A DNA stretch of 64,000 nucleotides, from assembly GCF_025370875.1 (NCBI RefSeq), contig NZ_JAMXFD010000012.1, positions 62,001-126,000 of the forward strand, read 5' to 3'. A program made the translations under genes and the position numbers. The notes beneath the pieces were generated by a model, which searched no databases, had not been told where the DNA came from, and saw nothing but the letters and a program-made list of their open reading frames with translations. This stretch comes from Laspinema palackyanum D2c (GTDB lineage Bacteria; Cyanobacteriota; Cyanobacteriia; Cyanobacteriales; Laspinemataceae). Shown one piece after another: positions 1,355 to 62,928 of the stretch (positions within the stretch are counted from its first letter, which is position 1; each line of letters begins with the position of its first letter).

Positions 1355-4300
1355 TCACCGCTGCTTCATCACCACCAAAGTAATATCATCAAACACCTTC
1401 TGTTCCCCAATAAACTCCCGCACATCCTGAATCACCCCTTCTCGAATCGCCTCCACCGACTCCTGCCAATACTGCGACACCACCTCACACAATCGGTCCA
1501 TCCCATAGAACTCTCCCGCCATATTTTCCGCCTCCGGTATCCCATCGGTATAAAGCACCACCCCATCCCCAGGATTTAACTCCACTTCTGCCTGAGTAAT
1601 AAAATCAGAAATATCCATCTCTAATCCCACAGGAAATCCTAAATCCACCGTATCCAGTCGCTCAATTTCTCCCGTTCCCCGAACCACCAAAACCTCCTCA
1701 TGTTGTCCCGTAATCCGCAACAGGCCATCGGCATAATCCAGTAACGCCAACGTCAGATTCTTATCCGTCCGCATCCGCTGCACGTTATCATGAATCATCC
1801 GGTTGATGGTATTGAGAAACTTCACATAATCCGTTTCATCATTCACCAACAAAGTCCGCACAGCAGTTTGGACCATCACCATTACCATTCCCGCTTCTAA
1901 TCCATGTCCCGTGACATCCCCAATCCCGATTTTGATATGTCCCTCATGGTTCAACACATCATAATAATCTCCCCCGATTTCATCAGCCGGTTCCATAAAT
2001 CCAGCGATTTCTAACCCAGGAATCGCTTGCAATTCTTCAGGGCGAGGCAACATTTTCTGTTGCAATTGGCGGGTGACATCCAGTTCTGCACTCATCCGCA
2101 GGTTGTCGGATTTGAGCATCTCATTCAAGGCGCTGATTTCTTCGTTGGCTTCCGCGAGTTGAGCAGTCCGTTCAATGACTTTATCTTCTAAGGTGCGATA
2201 GAGTTGGGCATTTTCTAAGGAAATTGCGGCTTGGGCGGAGATGACTTGTAACAGTTCAATCCGTTCTGGGGTAAATGCGCCGGTTGCTAAGTTGTTTTCC
2301 AGGTAAAGAATGCCGATGAGTTTGCCTTGGTTGACAATGGCGGCACAGAGAAGGGATTGGGTTTGCTGTTGGAGAATGTAAGGTTCTGAGGTGAAAATTC
2401 CCTCTTCGGTGGCGTTGGCAAGGATGACATTTTCCTGAGTCCGGGCGACATAATTAATGATACTTGGGGGGACAAAATTTCCGGTTTCTAGGGGGAGGGA
2501 TTCCAGGATTTGGACTTCCCCATTTGGGAGTTTGGCGGCTTCAATTTTGAGTTGATTATTGTCCGATAAAATCAGCACGCCTTTTTGTGCACCGGCATTT
2601 TCTATGGCAAGATTCAGGAGTTGGGCGAGGAGTTTATTGAGTTGGATTTCGCTGGAAATCGCTTGGGAGGCTTTGAGCACCGTGGCGATATCCAGGGTTT
2701 CCCCGGAACTGCTGCCACTGGTGGAGGTGGCGGAGAGTTTGCTGCCGGTGGAGGTTCTTAACTCAATGAGTTGGGGATAGCGGGTTTCTAGGTGTTGAAC
2801 TTTGGCGGTGGCCCCCCAGCGTTGATAGGCATAGTGGGCTTCTTGGAGGTAGAAGCGGGCTAAGTGAGGGATGTTGCGCGCGATGTAGAAACGGGCGGCG
2901 AGTTCGTAGGCGAGGGCTTCTTCGTTGAGGTATTCGTGTTCTTTGGCGAGGGTAATGGCGCGATCGTAGTAGTCTCGGGCATCGGAGGGGTTGCACAAGA
3001 CTCGGGCGCGTTCGGCTTCGACGAGATAATATTTATGCAGGTAGTTCATGGGGGCGTGTTGCGCCCAAAGTTGCATTTTTTCCTGGTTGGCAGTGACTTT
3101 TTCCAGGATGCGCTGTTGTTCGGGTTCGGAGGACTCGGGATAGAGGGCGAGGTGGGTGAGGGAATCGTAGAAATGGAAGAGAGGAACCGGATACTGGGCG
3201 ATCGCCATTCCCACATACTCTTCCCCCAAGGCTACATTTTCAGCCGCTTCTGGGAACCGTTCAAACAGGTAGCACAACATGATTTTGTTTAAATAACTCA
3301 AACAAAGCGCAATTCTATCCCCTGTTTGTTGATAAGATAACAGTTGACTCGATTCATCAAACGTATCACTATTGAGCGTCCAAGGTTCTTCAGTCGGAGT
3401 TAATAGCTTAAAACCCGATTCTCGAAACGATTCCATCCACCGTAACGATATAGCTTGCTTTAATTTGATGAGTTCATCGCTGTAAGTAGAAATTGCATTG
3501 TTGATATGAAGCAGTTCTTGGCCTGCCCAGTAGGAATGGACGCAGTACATCAACAACGCAGAACCCCCATACAGGATATCTCCGGTTTCTAATCCACTTT
3601 GATAGGCTTGTAACAATTTTTCTACGCTATGGCGGATAGGCTCCTTCCAGTGTCGAATGAACGTATTAAAAATATATAAAGTTTTGGTTTCTATCTCTTT
3701 GGTGTTTAGGCGATTCTGTAAATTCAAACCTAATAAACCAAATTCATATCCCGATTCTAAATCATTTTCTACCCCACATAAAAGTATGGCATAAGCTACA
3801 TATCCTCCTGGAGATTGAGAGGTAGTACCATACTGGAGGAATAAACCAGCCATCCGGAGTAAAATGAGGGGATAAATTTCAGGAAATCCAATAGCGGCAG
3901 CGCTAGATAAACTCACAAAAACCCGAGTGGCTGCCAACTTATAAGGGTCGAGCATCGGTGGCATATCAATTAAATCGGAAATCCGCTTTCCTGCCCAAAC
4001 TGATCGAGTTTCTGTCATCGCCTGCCCAATATCAGAGGGAGTGGGTTGCTCCGGAAGTGGCATTCCTAACCGTTCCAGAATTTCTAGCCCACTTTTTTTC
4101 GCTTCTCCTAGTTCATTCTGTGCAACATACCCTTGTATCTTCAGTTCATACACTTTCACGGTGTCCAAAACCGTGATAGCTTGGTGCAAAATTACTTCAC
4201 TGAATTCTTCCATCAAGGCATAAGAAGCACTAAACAAGGCGGCTTCAACCGCTTCTAAATACAGGGCCAAAGTTAAATCATATTGATCTTCCCAACTGTT

Positions 4301-6649
4301 TTGGGGAAGTAACTCGATCGCCGTCTGGAAGTAACGTAAGGCCGATTTAAAAGCAGCCGAGGCTTTGGCTTTTTTACCAGCTCTCTCATTTAATAAAACT
4401 AACTCCTGTTGTAAGGATTCCTCAACAATGGCTTCCCGGCCCAAGTTGAGTTGATGGACGATATCAAAGATATTCTGCTCGCGGTTTTCTAAGGGGATAT
4501 TTTCGAGGAATAACTGACCAATTCTTAGATGGACCGCTTGTTTATCAGTGTCCGGAATTAAAGAATAAGCCGCTTGCTGGATGCGGTCATGAGCAAATTT
4601 ATACCCCACTGTTACCCCCTCTGCAATCTCGGGGATATCCAATTCCATTAGCTTATAGTCGTCCCCCAGGGGTAAAATCAAAGTCTCGGAGATGGCCTCC
4701 CATAATGCGGCTGCCGTTTCTGAACGGGATTTCTGAGAGACAAGGGCCAAAGTTTCTAGGTCAAAGCGATAGCCCATACAAGCCGCTAATTTTAAGCAAG
4801 TTTGGGTAGTTTCGGGTAGTTTTTGAACTTGCTCTACCATCAAATCCACCACATTATCTGTAATATTTTGGGCCGCTATTTGATGAATATCCCACTGCCA
4901 GCAGCGACGGTCCGAGTCAAAATTTAAGATTTTATTTTTATAAAGAGAGCTTAAAAACTGGGTGAGAAAAAATGGATTTCCCTTAGTTTTGACCTCTACT
5001 AACTCCGCCAGGGGTTGGGCAATTTCTTCCGTAGTATTTAGGGTATCGGCAACCAACTGGGTGACATCACTCAGACTCAACGGAGTCAGAAAAATTTGAT
5101 TGACGATCGCTTGGTTTTTTTGAAGTTCCTCTAGGGTGAGCATCAAGGGATGTGCGGAGGAAACTTCGTTATCGCGATAGGCCCCGATGAGATATAAATA
5201 CTGACTCGCCGGGGTGGTCATCAGAAGTGCTAACAATTTCAGGGAAGCGTTATCAGACCATTGCAAATCATCTAAAAAGACAACCAGGGGATGTGACGCT
5301 TGGGTAAAGACTTGGATAAAGTTTTGGAAGACTAATTTAAAGCGATTTTCCGCTTCTGTTCCCGGAAGTTCGGGGATAGGGGGTTGTTCACCAATGATGG
5401 CTTTCAGTTCGGGAATGACATCAATGATAATTTGTGCATTAGGCCCGAGTGCCGTCAGCAGTTTCTCCCGCCAAGTGGCGATTTGGGTCGCGCTTTCTGT
5501 CAGCAATTGCAAGATTAAAGACCGAAAGGCTTGCACCAGAGAAGCATAAGGAATATCCCGTTGCAGTTGGTCAAATTTGCCGGAGATAAAATAACCCCGT
5601 TGACGGGTAATCGGTTTATAAACTTCCTGGACTAAGGCTGATTTCCCAATCCCAGAATATCCCGCTACCAGCATCAGTTCAGTCTGTCCACCGCTACAAA
5701 CTCGCTCAAACCCCAAGAGCAGTTCGGCGATTTTTTGCTGCCGTCCATACAGTTTTTGCGGCAATTGGAATCGGTCCGAACTATCCTGAGTCGCGAGAGG
5801 AAAAGGTTGGATTTGTTCAGTGTTTTGCCACTGGCGCAAACCTTCTTCTAAATCCCTCTTTAATCCATAAGCGGATTGATAGCGGTCTTCCGCATTTTTG
5901 GACATCAATTTTAAGATGATGTGCGAAATTGCTTCAGGAATCCCTGGATTAAGCTCATGGGGTGGAATGGGTTGTTGAGCGAGATGGGAATGCACCAGGG
6001 CCAGGGGGTCATCGCTGGGAAAGGGAACTCTGCCGGTAAGCAGTTCGTAGAAGGTCACCCCGAGGGAATAAAAATCACTGCGATAGTCTACAGTGCGATT
6101 CATCCGTCCGGTTTGTTCTGGGGCAATATAGAGGAGGGTTCCTTCTAAGAGATTCGGATTGCGAAAGGTGGGATTTTCTCGACTGAGTTGGGTGGAAATA
6201 CCAAAATCGATAAGTTTGAGTTCTTGAGTTGTGGGGTTAAGAACGAGGTTGCTGGGGTTAATATCTTTGTGGATAATTTGTTGCTGATGGACGTGATCCA
6301 AGATGTCGGCAATAACAATGGCAATGGGTAAAAATTGACTCAGGGTTAGAGGTTGATTTTGAATGATTGTCTTGAGGGAAACCCCGCCAAAATCTTCAAT
6401 CACCATCACCCATTGACGCTCCGACCTTTCTAAGCGATAGGCATTGATGATCCCGGGAAAATTTAGAGACCTAGTGGTTTCATACTCCCGCTTAAACTGG
6501 GCGATTTTTTCCGGGGAGGGGTAGGCTTGATTGAGCAGTTTGAGGATAACGGGTTGGTTATCGGATAGACCCACGGCGCGATAGATTCGGGAGTTGCTGC
6601 TTTCGTGGAGTAGTTCGCCGATTTGGTAGTCTAAAATTGCGATCGCCAT
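1355..6649 (-). CDS. Ser/Thr protein kinase - AAA ATPase - GAF - PP2C (SpoIIE-type) phosphatase signalling protein
   Basis: A 1764-residue multidomain protein. Residues ~8-270 are a Hanks-type kinase with Lys37, catalytic loop HKDINPSNL (127-135) and DFG (148-150). Then comes an AAA_16-type ATPase with P-loop GYSGIGKSALV near residue 335, a long helical, probably TPR-like region, a GAF domain, a coiled coil and a C-terminal SpoIIE/PP2C-like phosphatase domain (metal residues in EIGGDYYD, GDVTGHG and YTDGIPE). Kinase and phosphatase activities thus sit in one chain, a layout known from large cyanobacterial and proteobacterial regulators. It starts 16 bp after the P450 stop codon, so it is probably co-transcribed with the P450. 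Substrate and GAF ligand are unknown. Its role in the peptide locus is inference. Confidence 0.9.
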   Translation of the reverse strand: MAIAILDYQIGELLHESSNSRIYRAVGLSDNQPVILKLLNQAYPSPEKIAQFKREYETTRSLNFPGIINAYRLERSERQWVMVIEDFGGVSLKTIIQNQPLTLSQFLPIAIVIADILDHVHQQQIIHKDINPSNLVLNPTTQELKLIDFGISTQLSRENPTFRNPNLLEGTLLYIAPEQTGRMNRTVDYRSDFYSLGVTFYELLTGRVPFPSDDPLALVHSHLAQQPIPPHELNPGIPEAISHIILKLMSKNAEDRYQSAYGLKRDLEEGLRQWQNTEQIQPFPLATQDSSDRFQLPQKLYGRQQKIAELLLGFERVCSGGQTELMLVAGYSGIGKSALVQEVYKPITRQRGYFISGKFDQLQRDIPYASLVQAFRSLILQLLTESATQIATWREKLLTALGPNAQIIIDVIPELKAIIGEQPPIPELPGTEAENRFKLVFQNFIQVFTQASHPLVVFLDDLQWSDNASLKLLALLMTTPASQYLYLIGAYRDNEVSSAHPLMLTLEELQKNQAIVNQIFLTPLSLSDVTQLVADTLNTTEEIAQPLAELVEVKTKGNPFFLTQFLSSLYKNKILNFDSDRRCWQWDIHQIAAQNITDNVVDLMVEQVQKLPETTQTCLKLAACMGYRFDLETLALVSQKSRSETAAALWEAISETLILPLGDDYKLMELDIPEIAEGVTVGYKFAHDRIQQAAYSLIPDTDKQAVHLRIGQLFLENIPLENREQNIFDIVHQLNLGREAIVEESLQQELVLLNERAGKKAKASAAFKSALRYFQTAIELLPQNSWEDQYDLTLALYLEAVEAALFSASYALMEEFSEVILHQAITVLDTVKVYELKIQGYVAQNELGEAKKSGLEILERLGMPLPEQPTPSDIGQAMTETRSVWAGKRISDLIDMPPMLDPYKLAATRVFVSLSSAAAIGFPEIYPLILLRMAGLFLQYGTTSQSPGGYVAYAILLCGVENDLESGYEFGLLGLNLQNRLNTKEIETKTLYIFNTFIRHWKEPIRHSVEKLLQAYQSGLETGDILYGGSALLMYCVHSYWAGQELLHINNAISTYSDELIKLKQAISLRWMESFRESGFKLLTPTEEPWTLNSDTFDESSQLLSYQQTGDRIALCLSYLNKIMLCYLFERFPEAAENVALGEEYVGMAIAQYPVPLFHFYDSLTHLALYPESSEPEQQRILEKVTANQEKMQLWAQHAPMNYLHKYYLVEAERARVLCNPSDARDYYDRAITLAKEHEYLNEEALAYELAARFYIARNIPHLARFYLQEAHYAYQRWGATAKVQHLETRYPQLIELRTSTGSKLSATSTSGSSSGETLDIATVLKASQAISSEIQLNKLLAQLLNLAIENAGAQKGVLILSDNNQLKIEAAKLPNGEVQILESLPLETGNFVPPSIINYVARTQENVILANATEEGIFTSEPYILQQQTQSLLCAAIVNQGKLIGILYLENNLATGAFTPERIELLQVISAQAAISLENAQLYRTLEDKVIERTAQLAEANEEISALNEMLKSDNLRMSAELDVTRQLQQKMLPRPEELQAIPGLEIAGFMEPADEIGGDYYDVLNHEGHIKIGIGDVTGHGLEAGMVMVMVQTAVRTLLVNDETDYVKFLNTINRMIHDNVQRMRTDKNLTLALLDYADGLLRITGQHEEVLVVRGTGEIERLDTVDLGFPVGLEMDISDFITQAEVELNPGDGVVLYTDGIPEAENMAGEFYGMDRLCEVVSQYWQESVEAIREGVIQDVREFIGEQKVFDDITLVVMKQR

Positions 6650-6665
6650 CAGATTCTGTCCTGGT

Positions 6666-8015
6666 TTAGGGTCTACAGGGGATACCGACCCTCATCCAGA
6701 GTTCCCGATCCGGACGGATGGTTAACCCCGCCTTGGGTAGGATATTCCCTTCACCCTGTAATGTTAGTCGATAGCATTGAGCAATTGTAGATGAAATTAA
6801 CTGAATTTGCATCAGAGAAAATTCATTGCCGATGCAAAGGCGAGGTTCTACCCCAAAGGGAAGGTAAGCATATTTAGAATGCTGGGCGTTTTCTTTCGCG
6901 AAGCGATCGGGCCAAAATCGTTCGGGATGGGGAAAATTGCGCGGGTCACGATGCAGCAGATAGGGACTCACCCAGACTTGGGTTCCGGGTTGTAAGGTAT
7001 AATCCTCCAGGGGAATTTCTGCTACAATTTCGCGCACGATCGCCGAGTTGGGAGCATAAAACCGCAGGGTTTCTTTGACCAGTTTTTGTCCATACCCTAA
7101 AACCCTCAGATTCTCTGCATCCGGAAGTTTTTCTCCTAATACTCGGTCTAACTCTTCCCGAAATAGAGTCTCGATTTCTTCTACATTTTGGGAGAGAGAG
7201 TAAAATAGCCATATTAAACTGGTGGGAATGGTATGATGCCCTGCAAAAAACATCTGCAAAACTTCCCCAATGATTTCTGATGGCTCCAGGGGCGTCCCCG
7301 AGTCATCTTTAGCACTGATGAGAAATGAGAGCATATCCCCTCGGTCTTCTCCTGCGGTAAGGCACTGCTCAATCAGAGATAAAGTTGCCTCCATTTTGGG
7401 TTTAGCTCGCAACCGAGTTAAGGAAAAAATGTTAGTAATCCCCTGTCCTTGGCTGACTGTAAATGCCTCGCCCAGGGCTTCCTCCAAGGGAATCAGGCCC
7501 GCCCGTTTCTGGTTTTCAGTTGCCGATCCATAGCCTTCGAGTTCGGCATCAAATAAGACTCGGGCTGCAATCCGTGCGCTGAGAATCAGGAATTCTCGAT
7601 CCAGGTTCACCCGTTCTCCCAGTTCCCACCCCGCCAGCATTTCTCGGGTACAATCCACAATAGTTTGAGCGTAAGCGGCAATCCGCTGATGGTGAAAGGC
7701 AGGCTGCATGAGACGGCGGCGCGTTTTCCAGATTTCTTTTTCTAAACTGGTTAATCCATCTCCCCAATATCCCCGATTTGATTGTTTGAGGAGTTCAGGT
7801 TTTAGCAAGTTTTGGGCATTTTTAACAAACACTTCCTGAACTAAATCGGGGTGATTAAGCAAATAAATACTATTAGACCCCATTTGGAAGAAACAAATAT
7901 CACCGTAGCGGTGGGCCACGGTTTCTAAAAATCCCAGAGCATTGGCTTGAAAGTGGATGGTATTTCCCATCCCAAACAAGCCTCCATCAGGACCGGGCGG
8001 ATAAGAACGGTTCAT
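6666..8015 (-). CDS. Cytochrome P450, CYP110-like
   Basis: Haem-thiolate monooxygenase of about 449 residues from the preferred start. Visible family marks are PPGP near the N-terminus, ETLRF (ExxR), a PERFWPDRF segment and the Cys-ligand loop FGVEPRLCIGNEF. The I-helix reads FFAGHHTIPT: the usual acid before the conserved Thr is replaced by His, which may alter oxygen activation or indicate an unusual substrate. An in-frame ATG at 8057 adds 14 residues, but it lies inside a palindromic repeat (8049-8170); the ATG at 8015 puts the PPGP motif at the N-terminus as in relatives, so I prefer it. Neither start has a clear Shine-Dalgarno. It lies between the YcaO cyclodehydratase and the kinase on the same strand, which suggests a tailoring role. 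That role is inference. Confidence 0.9.
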   Translation of the reverse strand: MNRSYPPGPDGGLFGMGNTIHFQANALGFLETVAHRYGDICFFQMGSNSIYLLNHPDLVQEVFVKNAQNLLKPELLKQSNRGYWGDGLTSLEKEIWKTRRRLMQPAFHHQRIAAYAQTIVDCTREMLAGWELGERVNLDREFLILSARIAARVLFDAELEGYGSATENQKRAGLIPLEEALGEAFTVSQGQGITNIFSLTRLRAKPKMEATLSLIEQCLTAGEDRGDMLSFLISAKDDSGTPLEPSEIIGEVLQMFFAGHHTIPTSLIWLFYSLSQNVEEIETLFREELDRVLGEKLPDAENLRVLGYGQKLVKETLRFYAPNSAIVREIVAEIPLEDYTLQPGTQVWVSPYLLHRDPRNFPHPERFWPDRFAKENAQHSKYAYLPFGVEPRLCIGNEFSLMQIQLISSTIAQCYRLTLQGEGNILPKAGLTIRPDRELWMRVGIPCRP

Positions 8016-8048
8016 AACGAGTTCAAGGTAATACGGAATTCGGTTGTG

Positions 8049-8170
8049 ATACTCCATACGGTACTAATAAGTCTAGAAAAACAATCGGCATCAAGCGGTA
8101 TGTGTAGGGGCCTGCGCATCGAAGCCCCTACAATCCGTTTTTATAGACCTTTAAATACCGTATGGAGTAT
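8049..8170. repeat. MITE-like palindromic element with 15-bp exact terminal inverted repeats
   Basis: ATACTCCATACGGTA at 8049-8063 is the exact reverse complement of TACCGTATGGAGTAT at 8156-8170. Nested inside is a perfect 9-bp stem TGTAGGGGC/GCCCCTACA (8103-8111 and 8124-8132). The left arm overlaps the longer candidate N-terminus of the P450. Insertion between the cyclodehydratase and P450 genes is the simplest reading. Confidence 0.7.
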
Positions 8171-8201
8171 GATAGGTATTTAAAAACGAGTAGGGTGGGC
8201 A

Positions 8202-8291
8202 CTGCCCACCTTTCCTTCCGGTGGGCAATGCCCACCCTACTTTTAACTGCCCACCTTTCCTTCCGGTGGGCAATGCCCACCCTACTTTTAA
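8202..8291. repeat. Two tandem 45-bp units containing GGTGGGCAATGCCCACC palindromes
   Basis: Two adjacent 45-bp units start with CTGCCCACC at 8202 and 8247. They contain the strong hairpin GGTGGGC...GCCCACC also used after thiC (31028-31044). Downstream of the cyclodehydratase gene they could attenuate read-through into the P450 gene. Confidence 0.8.
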
Positions 8292-8316
8292 CTACTACTT
8301 TTAACTACTTTCTCTC

Positions 8317-10557
8317 TTACAGAAACATGGCAATCGGATTTAACTGTTCTTCCGTTAGGGGTTGACCCAAGTCTCCTATATGCACGGGGACTTCATAGAG
8401 GCGACCGGGAGCAAATCGGGCCCAAAAGTGCCGCATCCCTGGAACAATGGTTTTAACGACATGGAGTCCAGTATCGGGTCGGGTTTGGTCTAACACCAGA
8501 AGAGATAATCCTTTTGAGCGCACGATTTCCCCGCAGGTGATGACATCGGCATATAAATCCTGACTGGAGAGGGAAGCATAATCCGATCGCCTTTTCTGCG
8601 GTAAGCTCGGATCCGGAGTCAGATAGGACTGATTCTCCGTGGTGGCTAGGGTCAACCACTCCAGCACTTCCCGGTCTTCGATGCGATGATCTGGGGTTTC
8701 TGCAATCAGGGTGGGTAAAAACTGATTGAGTTCGGTCAAGGCTCGCAGAATCCCTATTTGCGGATCAAAATGTGCTCCGAATGCCAGAATCACCTTTGAC
8801 CCCGGTTGATCCCGGCGTGCCGAAATCGCAGCGAAAGTGGGGATATTAAAATCACTGGTGATATCTAGGACCCACAGACTGCGATCGCGGCTGTGGTAAT
8901 AGTCTAAAAGGGTCTGAAAGTAAGGTTCATCAAAGCTGGCGAGGTCTACTGCTGGTTTCTTGAGTCGATTGTACCACCACAGGGCGACGCTATCTCGCTC
9001 TACCAATTCCATAAATCCTTGCAATATTGCTTCTTCTTTGCTATTTCCCGCCGCACAGCCGTTAGAATCACCCCGAGCAAAGGTGGCGTGATGTTGACGG
9101 GAATAACCGTAGAAGCAATAGGCAGTGGGGAGATAACGGGGTTCGGACTCGGTTAAAGACCAGACTGGAGTCCAGTCAATCTCTTGGGTTTCATCGAAGG
9201 GTTCGGGAACCCAGTTGAAGCGGGTTTGTTGAGCATTCAGGCGATCGCGTTCTTGATACTGGCGATCGCTAAACAGCATACAAGCGTTGGGGTGAATAGC
9301 AGTTTCCAAATCTTGATACCGGGCGCGGATCCGGGCTTCATCCCCTTGAAAAACACCGGAATACCGCTCGATCGCCTCACATAAGGCGCTGGTTTTAGCT
9401 TGAATCTCCAATTTCCCCTTACCACCGGCTAGGGTCCGCAACCCTTGCCGGAGAAAATAGAGGTTATTATCGGCTAGGGCAAAGTTATGATTCGCAATAT
9501 AAGAATGCAGGGGTGACTGGTCATCTCCAGCAATCAACGAGGGTTGCAAGCTGCTAATCATGCCGGTAATCGGACTGATGTGATGCGCTAATTTCTGATA
9601 GGTTTCCTCGGGAGAGCAACTGCGATGTCCGCCATCCTCCGTAAAGGTTTTGGGGCGAGTTTGCAATTGGGGGGGCACTGACTGCTGTTTGGCAACCCAG
9701 TCAGGGTTCCCACAGGCGGGACATTGGGGCCGTTGGAGGAGGGGATGGTGCTGTTTTGCTAAGGTGAGGGCGTTGAGGGTAATCACCTCACCTTGTAGGA
9801 CTGGGGGGCGATCGCAGACAATCCATTGAGCAATTGCTGTAGCAGCGACGGCAAAAGCCATTTGCACCGTGGAAGGCAAGGCCAAAAATCCGGGAGCAAA
9901 AGGACCACAACGCCCTTTCTCTTCCAGATAGGTTTCTAGTTGGCGATGTCCCCGTAATCGATGAGCTAGACAGTGCCAGCATCCCGTCTGTTTGGGGATA
10001 AAAATCGGGCCGATCCACAGTTCCTTTCCCAAAGGTTTGAGCAACAGCCAAGGACGGTTAGCAGTGAGAGCCTTTTGGCTATAGGTTTCCAGTTCCGGAC
10101 GGAGGTAATCATCGGTGATCACCACTGCGCGATCGCCATCCTCCCCGATTCGCACACCGATTGCTTCCAGACTTGCTTGTAAGGGTGCGGTATCCAGGTT
10201 GGCGATGGGGATCAGCGACACCGTAGTTGCTTCCAACCGTTGGACTACAGTTCGTGAATTTATCCCGAGTCCATCCCAAAATGCTGCTTGCTGGGGTGTC
10301 AGGAGTGCAGGTTCATCCACAAGATGCCCGCCATCGCGTAACCGTTGGAGAATATAAAAGACTTCCGCAATGGATAAATGTCCATCCAGATGCTTGATAA
10401 TTTCCGTTTCCGTATATTGCCCATCCAGCAGGGGGGCAATCTGGATATATGCCTCACCCCCCAACAGAAATTGTCCGGTTTCGGACAGCAAAAATACCCC
10501 TTCCGAGGGGATTATTTCATACCGATAACCGGCTTTAAACTGGGGGCGAGGAATCAT
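8317..10557 (-). CDS. Fused RiPP leader-binding (E1/ThiF-like) and YcaO cyclodehydratase, TOMM type
   Basis: A 746-residue fusion typical of thiazole/oxazole-modified microcin (TOMM) systems. Residues 1-90 look like a winged-helix leader-recognition region. Residues ~105-290 are an E1-like scaffold with a zinc tetracysteine site (CWHC 193-196, CPAC 279-282). From ~335 the YcaO domain begins, with the ATP/Mg residues in SALCEAIERY (391-400) and EEAILQGFMELVERD. YcaO enzymes use ATP to cyclodehydrate backbone amides at Cys, Ser or Thr into azolines. The C-terminus (ending LNPIAMFL) lacks the PxPxP tail of many azoline-forming YcaOs. Two candidate precursor peptides lie immediately upstream on the same strand. 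No McbC-type dehydrogenase, protease or exporter is visible nearby. Domain identity is strong; the product is unknown. Confidence 0.88.
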   Translation of the reverse strand: MIPRPQFKAGYRYEIIPSEGVFLLSETGQFLLGGEAYIQIAPLLDGQYTETEIIKHLDGHLSIAEVFYILQRLRDGGHLVDEPALLTPQQAAFWDGLGINSRTVVQRLEATTVSLIPIANLDTAPLQASLEAIGVRIGEDGDRAVVITDDYLRPELETYSQKALTANRPWLLLKPLGKELWIGPIFIPKQTGCWHCLAHRLRGHRQLETYLEEKGRCGPFAPGFLALPSTVQMAFAVAATAIAQWIVCDRPPVLQGEVITLNALTLAKQHHPLLQRPQCPACGNPDWVAKQQSVPPQLQTRPKTFTEDGGHRSCSPEETYQKLAHHISPITGMISSLQPSLIAGDDQSPLHSYIANHNFALADNNLYFLRQGLRTLAGGKGKLEIQAKTSALCEAIERYSGVFQGDEARIRARYQDLETAIHPNACMLFSDRQYQERDRLNAQQTRFNWVPEPFDETQEIDWTPVWSLTESEPRYLPTAYCFYGYSRQHHATFARGDSNGCAAGNSKEEAILQGFMELVERDSVALWWYNRLKKPAVDLASFDEPYFQTLLDYYHSRDRSLWVLDITSDFNIPTFAAISARRDQPGSKVILAFGAHFDPQIGILRALTELNQFLPTLIAETPDHRIEDREVLEWLTLATTENQSYLTPDPSLPQKRRSDYASLSSQDLYADVITCGEIVRSKGLSLLVLDQTRPDTGLHVVKTIVPGMRHFWARFAPGRLYEVPVHIGDLGQPLTEEQLNPIAMFL

Positions 10558-10682
10558 AGGTTCGTCAGTGACTTCTGATGGATTGGGTCAAGGTTTGGAT
10601 GCCATCGGGTTAAACGACCTCAGACCGGATGTAAGCATCCCGCATCTGCCAGTTAAACAGGAGACCATCTGTTTTAAAGGCT

Positions 10683-10997
10683 TTAAATGGTCAAGTAAGG
10701 AATAACGTGAGTCTGTTTTCCGCTCAGAATATCATTGATTTCTGTTTCCTTCATCGCCGTAGGACAAGGAGGGATCTCAAAGAACCGCTTGAATCGGACT
10801 TTTTGAAACAACTCAATGATTCCTAGTCGAGTAGCGTTGTTTTCATCCTCTACATTATGGGAGTTGAGAAAATCTTCAATTGCCTTGCGAGGATGTAACT
10901 CAAACTCATTTTTAAAGGTTTCGTTAGTCCAAGCATAGGCAACTATTCTTGCCCATTCTTCTAAGGAAATGTATTCTTCGGAAATTTCTAGGGACAT
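10683..10997 (-). CDS. NHLP-type RiPP precursor peptide, core ending PYLTI
   Basis: A 104-residue peptide with a nitrile-hydratase-alpha-like leader: EEWARIVAYAWTNETFKN followed by HPRKAIEDF, then an EIPPCP segment and a C-terminal ILSG motif (90-93) resembling the double-Gly-type cleavage site of such leaders. The putative core after SG is 11 residues, KQTHVIPYLTI, with two Thr as possible cyclisation sites. It shares leader, IPPxP, SG and PY features with the neighbouring 93-residue precursor. An AGAGGA-like Shine-Dalgarno (AGAGGA) precedes the ATG by about 7 nt. It lies 125 bp upstream of the cyclodehydratase gene on the same strand. The RiPP role is inferred from leader type and context; the exact cleavage point is a guess. 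Confidence 0.75.
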   Translation of the reverse strand: MSLEISEEYISLEEWARIVAYAWTNETFKNEFELHPRKAIEDFLNSHNVEDENNATRLGIIELFQKVRFKRFFEIPPCPTAMKETEINDILSGKQTHVIPYLTI

Positions 10998-11097
10998 CTA
11001 ATTTTCCTCTAAATTTAAACGAACTTTCTCCAACCCCTTCTTCACTGCGACGCCCTACTCATCATGAGGTAAGCCAGTTCCCGCGTTAGATTTTTGA

Positions 11098-11379
11098 CTA
11101 ACAAAGACAGGTATAAGGCAGTGCAATTGCCGGTTCATCACCGCTGGCAATGGCTTGTATATTCGGAATATCCCCTGGATTGGGTGGAATTCGCAGCACA
11201 CGAACCTGGGTCATATCTTCTGGAAAAGCACCCGGGGGAAATTTGTCCTTAAACTTTTCTATGGCTACACGGGGATGTTTTTCAAACTCATCTTTAAATT
11301 CGGTATCTTTCCAACATAAAGCCATGATCAACCCCCATTGCAAGGAGGTTAAATATTGCGGTTCCGTTTGGTTTTCCAT
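11098..11379 (-). CDS. NHLP-type RiPP precursor peptide, core ending PYTCLC
   Basis: A 93-residue peptide whose leader (LQWGLIMALCWKDTEFKDEF, then HPRVAIEKF) matches the nitrile-hydratase-leader pattern, with RIPPNP at 63-68 and AIASG at 76-80. The putative core after SG is 13 residues, DEPAIALPYTCLC, with Thr90, Cys91 and Cys93 as plausible azoline sites. It is first in the apparent operon, 100 bp before the second precursor. A sigma70-like promoter lies about 150 bp upstream. No clear Shine-Dalgarno precedes the ATG. It could alternatively be a stand-alone small NHase-like protein, but its place beside a YcaO cyclodehydratase makes a precursor the best explanation. Confidence 0.77.
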   Translation of the reverse strand: MENQTEPQYLTSLQWGLIMALCWKDTEFKDEFEKHPRVAIEKFKDKFPPGAFPEDMTQVRVLRIPPNPGDIPNIQAIASGDEPAIALPYTCLC

Positions 11380-11525
11380 GTTGAGTTAGGTCATAATAAG
11401 TGGTTAGACTGGCATGATTAATTAATCTTCATCCATTCTCGGCCTTGAACACTCTAGTCTGCGTTACAGAACAGGATGTTGACAAGGGAAGCACACTTAG
11501 ATTCTGGGTTCATAATGATAGGTTA

Positions 11526-11562
11526 GCCGTGATTATATACGGAGTCAAGAGCAAAAGGTCAA
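11526..11562 (-). promoter_or_regulatory. Candidate sigma70-type promoter of the RiPP operon
   Basis: On the minus strand TTGACC (11562-11557) is followed after 17 nt by TATATA (11539-11534), itself part of TATATAAT. Transcription would start near 11526, giving a 5' leader of about 147 nt before the first precursor. This is a motif match only. Confidence 0.45.
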
Positions 11563-12054
11563 TTTAATTTTTATTAAGGTTGATTGACAAAGACAGTCAT
11601 CTGTTGTAAGGCACTTAAAACCAAGGGACCTCGGTCTTATAGGGTAAAACTTCAGGCGTAGGATTCAGGATTTGTAACCATTTAGGGGATTGCCAAAAAT
11701 AAATCATAAAACGTTCGTAGTGACTCCTTGATGGAGTCTTCTTTAAAGAAACCCCTAAAGGGGGGACGTTGAACGTTTGGAGGTTTTTTTTGAGTTCCCT
11801 TAGCTATCCTAGGGTCAGCCCAGGCAAACAACAATTTATTCCCCTGTTTAATCCAAGATTGAGCCGCTAAGGTGAGAGAGAGTGTCCCCGTTAAATTCAG
11901 GTTCCGCCGAATACGACGATAAGAACCGTTTTGCTTGCTCTCGGGAATGATAATTCGTCCCGAGGACTTCCCCTCCCCATCAACCCGGGACAAATGACCC
12001 ATGACCAATGACATAAAAAATGATAAAATCAGATGAACGGTTCACGAGGTTAGC
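11563..12054. other. Intergenic region between the RiPP operon and the Uma2 gene, with a dispersed repeat
   Basis: No convincing gene. At 11711-11780 there is a copy of the dispersed GTTCGTAGTGACTCC...CTTTAAAG family seen also at 16332-16523, 43127-43190 and 43905-43970. A 110-codon minus-strand frame crosses this repeat and is judged spurious. Confidence 0.6.
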
Positions 12055-12624
12055 ATGGGCGATCGCCAACTCAACAGTTACACCCTTCCTTCCCCTGATT
12101 TAGCACCGGAGAACGGTCTGTCTTACCCCTTTACCTCGGATCAGACTCCCGGATCGCAGCAATCTCCCACTCAGGAACGGGTTACCCAAACTCTCTCTCA
12201 GCTTTTAATCCAGCACCTGCGTGGTACGAATGCTGTTGTTTCTCTTCATCCGAGGCCGGTTTATATTGAAGCCGCATCTGCCTACTGTTATCCTGATTTA
12301 ATGGTCAGCCATGACCCTCGGGATTTAGATCGCCCCCACGGACGCGATGGGGTGATTCAATATCCCTGTTTGATTATCGAGGTGATATCTCACTCGGGTT
12401 CTGCCGGTGAGAAACTGGGTCAATTTGAGCAGTATCGTCAAATTGAGACTTTAGAGGAATATGTTTGGCTTGATCCCACTCAACCTCAACTGAATTGTTG
12501 GCGTCAAATTGAACCGGGAGTTTGGGAAATCTATCGCTATGAACCCGGGGATGATGTTTATTTGGATAGCCTAAGTTTTCTAATCGAAATTGAGGCTATT
12601 TATAACCGGGCCCTGATTTCATGA
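12055..12624 (+). CDS. Uma2-family (DUF820) PD-(D/E)XK nuclease-like protein
   Basis: A 189-residue protein of the Uma2 family, which is strongly expanded in cyanobacteria and has a restriction-endonuclease-like fold. Core residues visible are the Asp of YPDLMV and the Glu of CLIIEVIS, followed by the characteristic EKLGQFEQYRQIETLEEYVW helix-strand and a WLDP motif. The cellular role of the family is not established, although it is often treated as a putative endonuclease linked to mobile DNA. It stands alone on the plus strand between two minus-strand operons and ends 20 bp from the convergent cheW. The N-terminal ~40 residues are poorly conserved-looking, so a later start cannot be excluded. 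Confidence 0.82.
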   Translation: MGDRQLNSYTLPSPDLAPENGLSYPFTSDQTPGSQQSPTQERVTQTLSQLLIQHLRGTNAVVSLHPRPVYIEAASAYCYPDLMVSHDPRDLDRPHGRDGVIQYPCLIIEVISHSGSAGEKLGQFEQYRQIETLEEYVWLDPTQPQLNCWRQIEPGVWEIYRYEPGDDVYLDSLSFLIEIEAIYNRALIS

Positions 12625-12644: not shown

Positions 12645-13139
12645 TCAATCCAGGAGTTTATCCAAGTTCAGATAGAAGGCGACGGTACCGGCATCGGTGG
12701 TAATAATTTTTTCCACGGCTGCCGGTGCCGTATTTTTACTGTCCTTGCCTTGTCGATAGGAGATGGGAACTTCTGCAAAGTGATCTTCAGGAATATCTAA
12801 AATGGCGGGTAAATCTTGGAGGGGAATGCCGATACGATCGCCGTTGGTGAGGGTGCAGACAATTAAATAAGACCGTTCCTCCTGAGAATCCTTTGGGGTG
12901 ACAAATAGCCTGGATAGATCTAATAGGGTAATCAAATCTGCATCAATTTTAACGAGGCTGCGGCCCCCTTCGAGAGTCCCCTGGGGGGTGAATTCGGTGA
13001 GGACACGCTGCACCCGTTCGATGGCGATCGCGTATGTTTCCCCTGCGACTTCAAAGAGAACGAGTTTGCGCGCGGGAGTGCGCTGAATGGTGGTCTTTTT
13101 ATTGTGGAATCGGCGGCTGTACTTGGAGGGTGAAAACAT
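12645..13139 (-). CDS. cheW: CheW-like coupling protein (end of chemotaxis operon)
   Basis: A 164-residue protein with one CheW domain: RKLVLFEVAGETYAIAIERV opens the first SH3-like lobe, and LITLLDLSRLF plus YLIVCTLTNGDRIGIPLQDL form the rest. A basic N-terminal tail of about 24 residues precedes the domain. CheW proteins link receptors to CheA in the signalling array. It is the last gene of the minus-strand chemotaxis cluster, about 250 bp downstream of cheA, the gap being partly filled by a GAGTGCGAGCATCTTGCTCGC repeat. Being the second CheW of the cluster, it may serve one receptor specifically; that is inference. Confidence 0.88.
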   Translation of the reverse strand: MFSPSKYSRRFHNKKTTIQRTPARKLVLFEVAGETYAIAIERVQRVLTEFTPQGTLEGGRSLVKIDADLITLLDLSRLFVTPKDSQEERSYLIVCTLTNGDRIGIPLQDLPAILDIPEDHFAEVPISYRQGKDSKNTAPAAVEKIITTDAGTVAFYLNLDKLLD

Positions 13140-61200: not shown

Positions 61201-62928
61201 CTAATGATCATCAACATCTAAATCGGGTGGGGAAGAGGAGACTGACTCCTCATCCTCATCCTGATTCTCATCCTCATAGAAATCGAAATGCTGTGAAGAA
61301 GACCGGAGCAATTCGTCCTCCTCCAGATCGAAATCGCGGGATGCAGAGGAGGAGTGTTGCTCAGACTCATCGAGATCGAAATCCGATCCTGACGAAGGAG
61401 ACTCCTGCTCTGGGGTATTCAGTTCTAAATCCGTGGGCAAGGAGTCAAACGAGTCTAGGTTAGATGAGATGGGGTTTGTCACTTCGGGACGATAAATCCG
61501 AATTTGGTTCAAACGAGGGCCTTCCGTAGAGACCACCGTAAATTCCAAATTATCGTAGAGGAGGGTTTCCCCCTCCGCTGGGATTTTTTGGAACTGATAG
61601 AGGAGGAAACCCCCCAGGGTCTGATATTCATCGGTCAGGGGTAAGTCAAAATTGAGCAATTCATTGACTTCTTCCAAGTTCATTTGAGCTTGGACCATCC
61701 AGGTTTGCTCATCGACCATTTGGATGGTTAACTCTTCAGAATCGGAGAGTTCGGGACTCTCGCCAATAATTTGGGCGACTAAATCACTAATGGTTACTAA
61801 ACCGGCAGTCCCGCCAAATTCATCAACCACCATGACCATTGGTCGTTGCGATCGCTGGACGATGGGCAACAACTCGCTTAAAGGGGTATATTCGGCAACG
61901 AACCGCGCCGGACGAATCCAGGGCGCTAGGGGAGTATCTGGGGTGAGGACTCCCTGGGCTAAAGGTCCGGCCAATTCTTTAAAATAGATGATACCGCGAA
62001 CGTCATCTAAAGATTCCCCAATCACCGGATAGCGGGAGTGACCTGTACTCACCACCTCGTTGAGCAACATTTGAAAGGTGGCATCATAAGAGATCCCATG
62101 AATGCTCGTTCGAGGCACCATCACTTCCCGAGCACAGACTTCCCCAAATTCAAACACATTATTGAGCAGTTCTCGCTCCTCGGCTTCTAATCCTGTGGAT
62201 TCGCGTTCCGTGGCGATAATCAGTTGTAATTCTTCAGGAGTGATGCGATTGGACCAAGCCTGAGCGTTAAAGCGAATACCCCCTAGACTGAGGAGCCAGC
62301 GGGTTGAGCGGTCCAGGATCCAGATAAAGGGGTGAAAAAATCGGGCGATCGCCAAACTCGGGGGGCCCAGGAGTCGCGCCAGTTGCTCAGAATAGAGCAA
62401 CGCCAAAGTTTTGGGACATAATTCGCCGAGGACAATTTGCAAATAAGCCACGATTAAAAAGGCCAGGGGGATTGCCAGGGAATGAGCGATCACCTGAGCA
62501 ATATCCGGCCTAATTGGCAACCAGACGATCCATTCGGCCACTAAAACCGCCATCGTATTTTCCCCAATCCAGCCTAGGGCCAGACTGGAGAGGGTAATGC
62601 CTAACTGAGTCGTCGAGAGCAGACGCTCGATATTGCGATGGAGATGTTGGACAATTTTGGCCTGGATGTCGCCATTATCGGCCAAATGATTAATCCGCGA
62701 TCGCCGCACGGAAACGATCGCAAATTCCGTCGTCACGAAAAAAGCATTAATGGCGATCAGTCCAAAGACCGCAAGCAACCGCAGTACGACATCTTGCCAG
62801 GTCTGAAGGGAATTCCCCGGGACCACCACCGCTAAATGACTCGCGATCGCACTGCCGGAGTGCAATCCCACGACCCCCAGGGTGACCATCCCACCCACCG
62901 CAGAAAAATAGCTTAAAGAACGCACCAC
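61201..62928 (-). CDS. CNNM/CorC-type (DUF21-CBS-CorC_HlyC) membrane protein with acidic repeat tail
   Basis: A 575-residue protein. After two N-terminal hydrophobic segments, the DUF21/CNNM membrane domain (~50-235: FFVTTEFAIVSVRRSRINHL onward) is followed by two CBS domains (~250-370, with REVMVPRTSIHGI), a CorC_HlyC transporter-associated domain (~385-465) and an extraordinary acidic tail (~500-575). The family is implicated in Mg2+/Co2+ or Na+-coupled export. The tail repeats an SSxxFDLDE-like unit (SGSDFDLDESE, SASRDFDLEEDE, SSQHFDFYEDEN) and is about half Ser, Asp and Glu. Substrate is inferred from family only. Confidence 0.88.
   Translation of the reverse strand: MVRSLSYFSAVGGMVTLGVVGLHSGSAIASHLAVVVPGNSLQTWQDVVLRLLAVFGLIAINAFFVTTEFAIVSVRRSRINHLADNGDIQAKIVQHLHRNIERLLSTTQLGITLSSLALGWIGENTMAVLVAEWIVWLPIRPDIAQVIAHSLAIPLAFLIVAYLQIVLGELCPKTLALLYSEQLARLLGPPSLAIARFFHPFIWILDRSTRWLLSLGGIRFNAQAWSNRITPEELQLIIATERESTGLEAEERELLNNVFEFGEVCAREVMVPRTSIHGISYDATFQMLLNEVVSTGHSRYPVIGESLDDVRGIIYFKELAGPLAQGVLTPDTPLAPWIRPARFVAEYTPLSELLPIVQRSQRPMVMVVDEFGGTAGLVTISDLVAQIIGESPELSDSEELTIQMVDEQTWMVQAQMNLEEVNELLNFDLPLTDEYQTLGGFLLYQFQKIPAEGETLLYDNLEFTVVSTEGPRLNQIRIYRPEVTNPISSNLDSFDSLPTDLELNTPEQESPSSGSDFDLDESEQHSSSASRDFDLEEDELLRSSSQHFDFYEDENQDEDEESVSSSPPDLDVDDH

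Follow-up and report, generated by a model that had tools for sequence, protein, structure and literature searches.

Background

Gene clusters for thiazole/oxazole-modified microcins (TOMMs) in which a large Ser/Thr kinase accompanies some of the precursors have been a known kind since Haft 2010 (PMC2887384). In the NHLP-Burk TOMM clusters described there (TIGR03795, TIGR03903), tandem precursors related to the nitrile hydratase leader peptides (NHLP) stand with a cyclodehydratase and a large kinase. All of these features recur at the locus reported here, which lies in a 64,000-nucleotide stretch of the cyanobacterium Laspinema palackyanum D2c (NZ_JAMXFD010000012.1, positions 62,001 to 126,000), hereafter the window. 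The locus encodes two NHLP-clan precursors (pre1 and pre2), a fused leader-binding/YcaO heterocyclase, a cytochrome P450 and a giant kinase, and is a variant of the known kind that carries a P450. It differs from the NHLP-Burk clusters in this P450, in the lack of an adjoining SagB, in a kinase that ends in a SpoIIE rather than a cyclase domain, and in precursor and kinase scores below the curated cut-offs.

The YcaO protein is homologous over its full length to the fused cyanobactin heterocyclases PatD, TruD, LynD and MusD. That YcaO proteins of these families group together is already published (PMC4603692), in a paper whose available text contains neither the term 'P450' nor 'kinase'. Cyanobactin clusters differ from our locus, which has NHLP-clan precursors instead, and among whose surrounding open reading frames (ORFs) no PatA-, PatG- or PatE-like gene was recognized by eye, no model search having been aimed at them. 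Two described reactions are of particular relevance to the P450. In the bottromycin pathway the P450 BtmJ oxidatively decarboxylates a C-terminal thiazoline and a flavin dehydrogenase is absent (PMC5103208), so that a P450 likewise takes the place of the dehydrogenase in a YcaO pathway; this likeness is one of pathway position and not of compared P450 sequences, and bottromycin differs in having two YcaO proteins and a follower peptide. LynB7, a relative of PtmU3 and BarH, converts 2-thiazoline-4-carboxylate to thiazole by oxidative decarboxylation (PMC10127204), its substrate differing in being a nonribosomal peptide synthetase/polyketide synthase product. A PtmU3-like protein fills the slot of the P450 in sibling cassettes and is absent from the window. 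Split borosins, finally, resemble a second locus of the genus, in which a TP-methylase (PF00590), TPR proteins and an acidic peptide of 87-106 aa precede a kinase of the same family; the window itself holds only a decayed TP-methylase fragment, and the likeness of the second locus is a matter of PF00590. Our search of the open-access literature returned no paper on a P450 or on cassette exchange in such loci.

Results

The window holds an intact TOMM cassette

The four ORFs named in a preliminary description of the region (pre1, pre2, YcaO and P450) are all present on the minus strand (Table 1). The boundaries given there, 6666-11562, proved too narrow, since the giant kinase gene begins 16 bp downstream of the P450 gene on the same strand. 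We conclude that the locus is an intact TOMM-type cassette for a ribosomally synthesized and post-translationally modified peptide (RiPP), of the kind defined by NHLP-clan precursors and a large kinase, and that the giant kinase belongs to the same unit as the peptide, YcaO and P450 genes, presumably as one operon. The plausible promoter originally placed before these genes was not borne out: a consensus scan of 6500-12100 gave 5 promoter-like sites, against a mean of 6.6 in shuffled sequence.

The description of the YcaO protein as a fused leader-binding cyclodehydratase is well founded, both curated models being exceeded (TIGR03882, 157.7 bits against a cut-off of 36.9; TIGR03604, 276.9 against 219.25). 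It matches PF02624 at E 1.3e-104 and carries PF21084 at its N-terminus. MusD, LynD and TruD were its only strong matches among solved structures (full-length phmmer E 2.1e-220, 5.4e-220 and 9e-212, respectively, that to LynD spanning residues 3-744). By homology, then, this is a cyanobactin-type heterocyclase paired with NHLP-clan precursors.

The precursors were harder to place. Both fall short of every curated cut-off, with TIGR03793 scores of 15.8 and 14.1 bits (cut-off 50.9; E 0.0091 and 0.031) and TIGR03795 scores of 16.4 and 14.8 bits (cut-off 41; best E 0.0086 and 0.027), so that the earlier label of NHLP-leader peptides stands only as relatedness to the clan. That relatedness holds because the two peptides resemble one another (local score 99, against at most 44 in 1000 shuffles) and the precursors beside homologous YcaO genes at two other loci, L048 and L104 (scores 75-94, shuffle maxima 45-49), beyond what shuffling produces. 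The same two loci contradict the possibility, raised with the first description, that homologues of the peptides always occur without a YcaO gene. A genome-wide TIGR03793 scan returned no match and is uninformative, because it also missed the precursors of the window. Peptide pre1 ends in ...PYTCLC, a heterocyclizable TCLC stretch with a terminal Cys beside the modifying enzyme; its leader likely runs to ...IASG, leaving the core DEPAIALPYTCLC. Peptide pre2, with a likely core KQTHVIPYLTI, ends in ...PYLTI, in which Thr is the sole heterocyclizable residue near the end.

Table 1. Features of the cassette and its surroundings in the window
Feature	Position	Strand	Basis or remark
pre1, NHLP-clan precursor, 93 aa	11098..11379	-	sub-threshold TIGR03793/TIGR03795; likeness to pre2 and to L048 and L104 precursors, tested against shuffles
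pre2, NHLP-clan precursor, 104 aa	10683..10997	-	sub-threshold TIGR03793/TIGR03795; shuffle-tested similarity
Fused leader-binding/YcaO heterocyclase, 746 aa, cyanobactin (LynD/TruD/MusD) kind	8317..10557	-	TIGR03882, TIGR03604, PF02624; PF21084 at N-terminus
Cytochrome P450, 463 aa	6666..8057	-	PF00067
Giant kinase, 1764 aa	1355..6649	-	domain matches; TIGR03903 partial, sub-threshold
Kinase TPR block (aa 700-1200), exchanged as a unit among kinases of the genus	3050..4552	-	
Kinase 3' end (from aa ~1440: end of GAF + SpoIIE)	1355..2332	-	
Inverted-repeat element (MITE-like), 122 bp	8049..8170	.	34-nt arms, 85% complementary
Tandem repeat, two copies of 45 bp	8201..8290	.	
Decayed TP-methylase N-terminal fragment (aa 2-62), relict of another peptide cassette	11627..11933	-	tblastn
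Uma2-family gene, conserved flank of the exchange locus, outside the cassette	12055..12624	+	
CheW-like gene, conserved flank	12645..13139	-	served to locate the locus in 7 of 14 family genomes

An isolated P450 with an altered I helix

The P450 gene is intact and lies on the same strand, as first described; its product matches PF00067 at E 4.8e-61 and has the cysteine-ligand loop. Its I-helix motif, AGHHT, carries His at a position that is Glu in all 12 relatives compared (AGHET or GGFET), and its Cys loop, FGVEPRLCIG, has Glu where all 11 relatives compared have Gly. Without the I-helix acid the enzyme may activate oxygen in an unusual way or cleave C-C bonds, and an ordinary hydroxylase becomes less likely. 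Overlapping samples of 386 genomes from the phylum, 14 from the family and 388 from the order held no relative above ~34% identity (part of the search scoring no more than four candidates per genome), and among the matches listed from 91 plasmid records the best likewise reached ~34%.

Between the YcaO and P450 genes lies a 259-bp gap filled by a tandem repeat and a 122-bp element that occurs at 17 places in the genome, this copy included (E up to 1.8e-12). The first start codon of the P450 falls within this element, which makes Met15 (MNRSYPPGP) the likelier start.

The slot of the P450 is an oxidase slot in sibling cassettes

The comparison drew on 60 YcaO places in cyanobacterial genomes, each taken with up to 20 kb of sequence and with some places left out (for example, the split G016:C76). 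Companion counts cover the 50 of them that show a kinase or extend for 8 kb or more downstream. A PF04909-type (amidohydrolase-like) protein lay downstream in 23 of the 50, 20 of these also having a giant kinase. SagB was found in 15 loci and neither protein in 12, with a single kinase in each group. The association of PF04909-type protein and kinase is strong (Fisher 8e-9, uncorrected for relatedness), and by arithmetic a kinase within 8 kb downstream is expected by chance in ~2% of cases, given that the number of such kinases per genome is 17-32 in six members of the genus (G000, G002, G003, G004, G005 and G007; E up to 1e-150). Some of these kinases stand in tandem, as at G005:C1:3181967-3198482. 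The three PF04909-type loci without a downstream kinase are L102, L111 and L178, the first of which is interrupted by insertion-type genes and has kinase pieces on the opposite side.

PtmU3 is the best solved structure for the PF04909-type proteins (E 5.5e-40 and 1.3e-43, the next matches 1.4e-27 and 2.7e-26). The slot held by the P450 in the window is thus taken in sibling cassettes by a PtmU3/LynB7-type enzyme or, less often, by a SagB dehydrogenase. The YcaO tree places the window in one clade with L048, L102 and L103 (support 1.0; window with L048, 0.83). L048 has SagB, PhyH, an amine oxidase and a kinase as companions, and L102 and L103 a PtmU3-like gene with a kinase or kinase pieces, so that a single heterocyclase clade uses three kinds of oxidase. 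All 16 precursors picked by eye beside PtmU3-like enzymes, at 12 of 26 PF04909-type loci, end in Cys (11), Ser (4) or Thr (1), frequent endings being PYTC, PLTC, PPTCC, PLATTC and PLTSC.

Several of the compared loci deserve mention in their own right. L048:9698-21784, from an Anaerolineales metagenome-assembled genome, has the YcaO closest to that of the window (58%); behind it come genes for SagB, a PhyH-like protein, an amine oxidase and a giant kinase with a terminal guanylate cyclase domain. At L101:9706-11970 the YcaO of G003:C318 is broken into two ORFs by an in-frame TAG, with precursors, PtmU3-like gene and kinase intact. Two genomes from a single cyanobacterial family share another TOMM cluster with a P450 (L157:1614-13091 and L158:3855-14720), which comprises a precursor with the core ...TACCCCCPCCTCT, a P450, a methyltransferase, a subtilase, YcaO, SagB and two further enzymes. 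In a set of 80 loci, a P450 lay within 10-12 kb only at L060 and L068.

Cassettes are exchanged and lost while kinases persist

The genes flanking the cassette are conserved in 7 of the 14 family genomes, all of the genus of the window, and what lies between them varies. Whereas the window has pre1, pre2, YcaO, P450 and a kinase that we term A, G005 has kinase A alone (93.8% aa identity), its DNA tracking the window to 6772, inside the P450 gene, and picking up again at 11814. In G002 and G003 the flanks enclose a long precursor, a YcaO 46% identical, a PtmU3-like gene and a different kinase, B. G004, the closest relative in the flank, has kinase B and one small ORF; G001 has a YcaO remnant and a kinase B divided over two ORFs; and G007 has nothing. 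The B-type kinases of G006 (L119:11860-17210) and G001 (L205:140-5490) are each two overlapping ORFs with a similar break point, reflecting either a shared frameshift or a recoding site.

Relatives of kinase A occupy a second locus in G004 (94% aa), G007 (87%) and G002 (80%). In G000, G003 and G005 this second locus carries other kinases, together with a TP-methylase (PF00590), TPR proteins and a small acidic peptide. Three such stretches (L212:3624-11987, L213:4053-12325 and L215:55-5345), with TP-methylase, TPR proteins, an acidic NHLP-like peptide and a giant kinase, are a candidate split-borosin cassette linked to the same kinase family.

The two loci share a scar. One and the same junction precedes kinase A in G005, G004, G007 and G002: a TP-methylase up to residue ~61-67, then the last ~34 residues of the P450, both pieces decayed. 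In the window a TP-methylase fragment lies just upstream of pre1 (tblastn E ~5e-11 and 1.8e-5; 0 of 200 shuffles above 21.9 bits), followed by the whole TOMM cassette, the P450 end and kinase A. The 110-aa ORF at 11682-12014 matched no family in Pfam/NCBIfam searches, and only the second locus made it recognizable. Most simply, an arrangement like that of the window suffered a single deletion, and the product of this deletion later spread across species and loci. Because the P450 3' end precedes the kinase at four loci, the neighbourhood of P450 and kinase predates the divergence of these species. The four kinases left without peptide genes show dN/dS of 0.07-0.13 outside the TPR block and 0.14-0.35 within it (NG86, with high dS in the swapped block), which indicates that they are under purifying selection. 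These comparisons establish that cassettes have been exchanged and lost in the genus while the kinases persisted, and that the P450 has been linked to the kinase for some time.

The kinases are mosaics

The kinase of the window comprises Pkinase (aa 12-258), AAA_16 (299-487), a TPR-like middle, GAF (1337-1478) and SpoIIE phosphatase (1569-1762) domains. Its match to TIGR03903 (TOMM_kin_cyc, 'TOMM system kinase/cyclase fusion') is partial, at 153.1 bits against a cut-off of 705.75. Kinases A and B at the same locus share 42-67% DNA identity over their first 1400 residues and 90-97% from ~1500 (100-codon windows), with a breakpoint near residue 1440-1450. In 20-codon windows, the 3' end of kinase A is 87-100% identical to those of otherwise divergent same-locus kinases, one final window giving 83%. 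Mere domain conservation is ruled out as the cause, as the non-syntenic kinase G003:C318 reaches only 72-80% there. The second-locus kinase of G002 is A-like to residue 712 and then, in the TPR block to ~1150, like that of G005 (maximum chi-square 783, permutation maximum 16.3, 0 of 300). Because of these breakpoints, the output, TPR and kinase-AAA blocks have separate histories; the alignments indicate that blocks recombined between two loci carrying two peptide classes.

Co-evolution of peptide and TPR block was weakened as an explanation: over 11 loci (55 pairs), precursor similarity correlated to much the same degree with all kinase blocks (Spearman 0.50-0.67; TPR 0.54, kinase domain 0.55), which points to co-inheritance without a TPR-specific signal. 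Among B alleles, in a single contrast, G002 differs from G003 and G006 both in the TPR stretch and in the core end (ATTC vs ATS).

Discussion

We favour, at a probability of about one half, the following explanation. The YcaO protein would bind the leaders of pre1 and pre2 and cyclize Thr and Cys residues of their short C-terminal cores to azolines. The P450 would be the azoline oxidase of the cassette, filling the PtmU3/LynB7-type or SagB slot, and would oxidatively decarboxylate the Cys-derived C-terminal thiazoline of pre1 to a thiazole, as BtmJ and LynB7 do. The downstream kinase would be the signalling partner of such cassettes, travelling with them whole or in parts. That the P450 tailors the peptide, as first proposed, is likely, because its 3' remnants precede the kinase at four loci and other oxidases fill the same slot; the window alone does not settle its membership, because the gap before it is filled with repeats and no other intact copy was sampled. 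Azoline oxidation is its probable role because sibling cassettes place PtmU3/LynB7-type enzymes or SagB in that position, and decarboxylation of pre1 appears its most likely reaction because LynB7 and the bottromycin P450 perform it on a C-terminal thiazoline, an argument by analogy from slot and core. That the product would be new is plausible.

Several observations weigh against this explanation. Peptide pre2, lacking a C-terminal Cys, Ser or Thr, fits C-terminal azoline decarboxylation poorly, and its ending therefore counts against one shared end reaction for both peptides. The repeats in the 259-bp gap make co-transcription of YcaO and P450 uncertain. No intact P450 of this kind stood beside a YcaO elsewhere among the sampled genomes, and only two of the 60 loci, L157 and L158, had a P450 nearby (upstream, 28-29% identical and with SagB). 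The cassette holds no protease or exporter, and of 71 genome-wide matches to the NHLM transporter model TIGR03796 none exceeded the cut-off, the best lying far below it; since all 14 control genomes also gave matches, this says only that there is no clear NHLM transporter. Finally, the lack of a PtmU3-like gene in the same genome at E 1e-8, which with a single partial 25% SagB match there speaks for the explanation, comes from a search without a positive control.

A possible, clearly less probable, alternative is that the P450 acts elsewhere in the peptide and leaves the azolines unoxidized; its likeliest target would then be the Tyr of the shared Pro-Tyr motif, by hydroxylation or aryl cross-linking. 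RiPP P450s are known to cross-link aromatic residues. Both cores of the window contain PY (ALPYTCLC and VIPYLTI) and only pre1 has a terminal Cys, while siblings with PtmU3-like enzymes vary at the Tyr position (PYTC, PLTC, PPTCC, PLATS). The P450 also scores 160.7 bits with the RiPP P450 model ApyO, though under its cut-off of 525 and under the albaflavenone-synthase model (194.3). The slot-for-slot exchange of P450, PtmU3-like enzyme and SagB within one YcaO clade suggests azoline oxidation instead. It is improbable that the P450 is a passenger, acquired separately and fortuitously lodged between the kinase and the TOMM genes. In favour of this, none of the other genomes searched has it, all listed sibling cassettes lack it and a repeat element separates it from YcaO; against it, the gene is intact and its 3' end directly precedes a kinase of this type in four more copies of the locus, from four species. 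Least probable is a decaying relict in which the kinase is the retained part and the peptide genes are no longer productive, since, despite the loss of biosynthetic genes around retained kinases in G001 (there in two ORFs), G004 and G005 and the lack of a fitting core in pre2, all ORFs of the window are intact and YcaO retains its domains at high score.

Beyond the proposed azoline-oxidizing cassette itself, we tentatively consider a wider arrangement, which we hold to be less likely than not: a modular peptide-receptor system in which interchangeable RiPP cassettes (P450-TOMM, PtmU3-type TOMM and borosin-like) make the ligands and stand before giant kinases. In it, recombination would swap the sensor and TPR blocks of these kinases and leave a GAF-SpoIIE output that is uniform across two loci. 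Strains that lost the peptide genes would retain the kinase, under purifying selection, to listen or to serve in immunity or defence, and the P450 product would be one ligand. In agr/comQXPA-like systems, peptide, processing genes and sensor part are exchanged together and the output part is kept. The kinase breakpoints and the TP-methylase remnant fit such an exchange, but the kinase N-block is also found where peptide genes are lacking, and precursor similarity follows every kinase domain to the same degree. A receptor role for the kinases is possible; against peptide sensing speak this even correlation, the persistence of kinase A without the peptide genes and the many kinases in these genomes that have no known peptide partner.

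If the explanation we favour is true, a single slot of this small pathway has taken up three unrelated oxygenases or oxidases (P450, PtmU3-type and flavin-dependent SagB), and the cassettes offer a natural series in which azoline oxidation can be compared with C-terminal decarboxylation. Large kinases have been noted beside TOMM genes since 2010, and a genus with the same kinase both with and without different cassettes makes the idea of the peptide as ligand directly testable.

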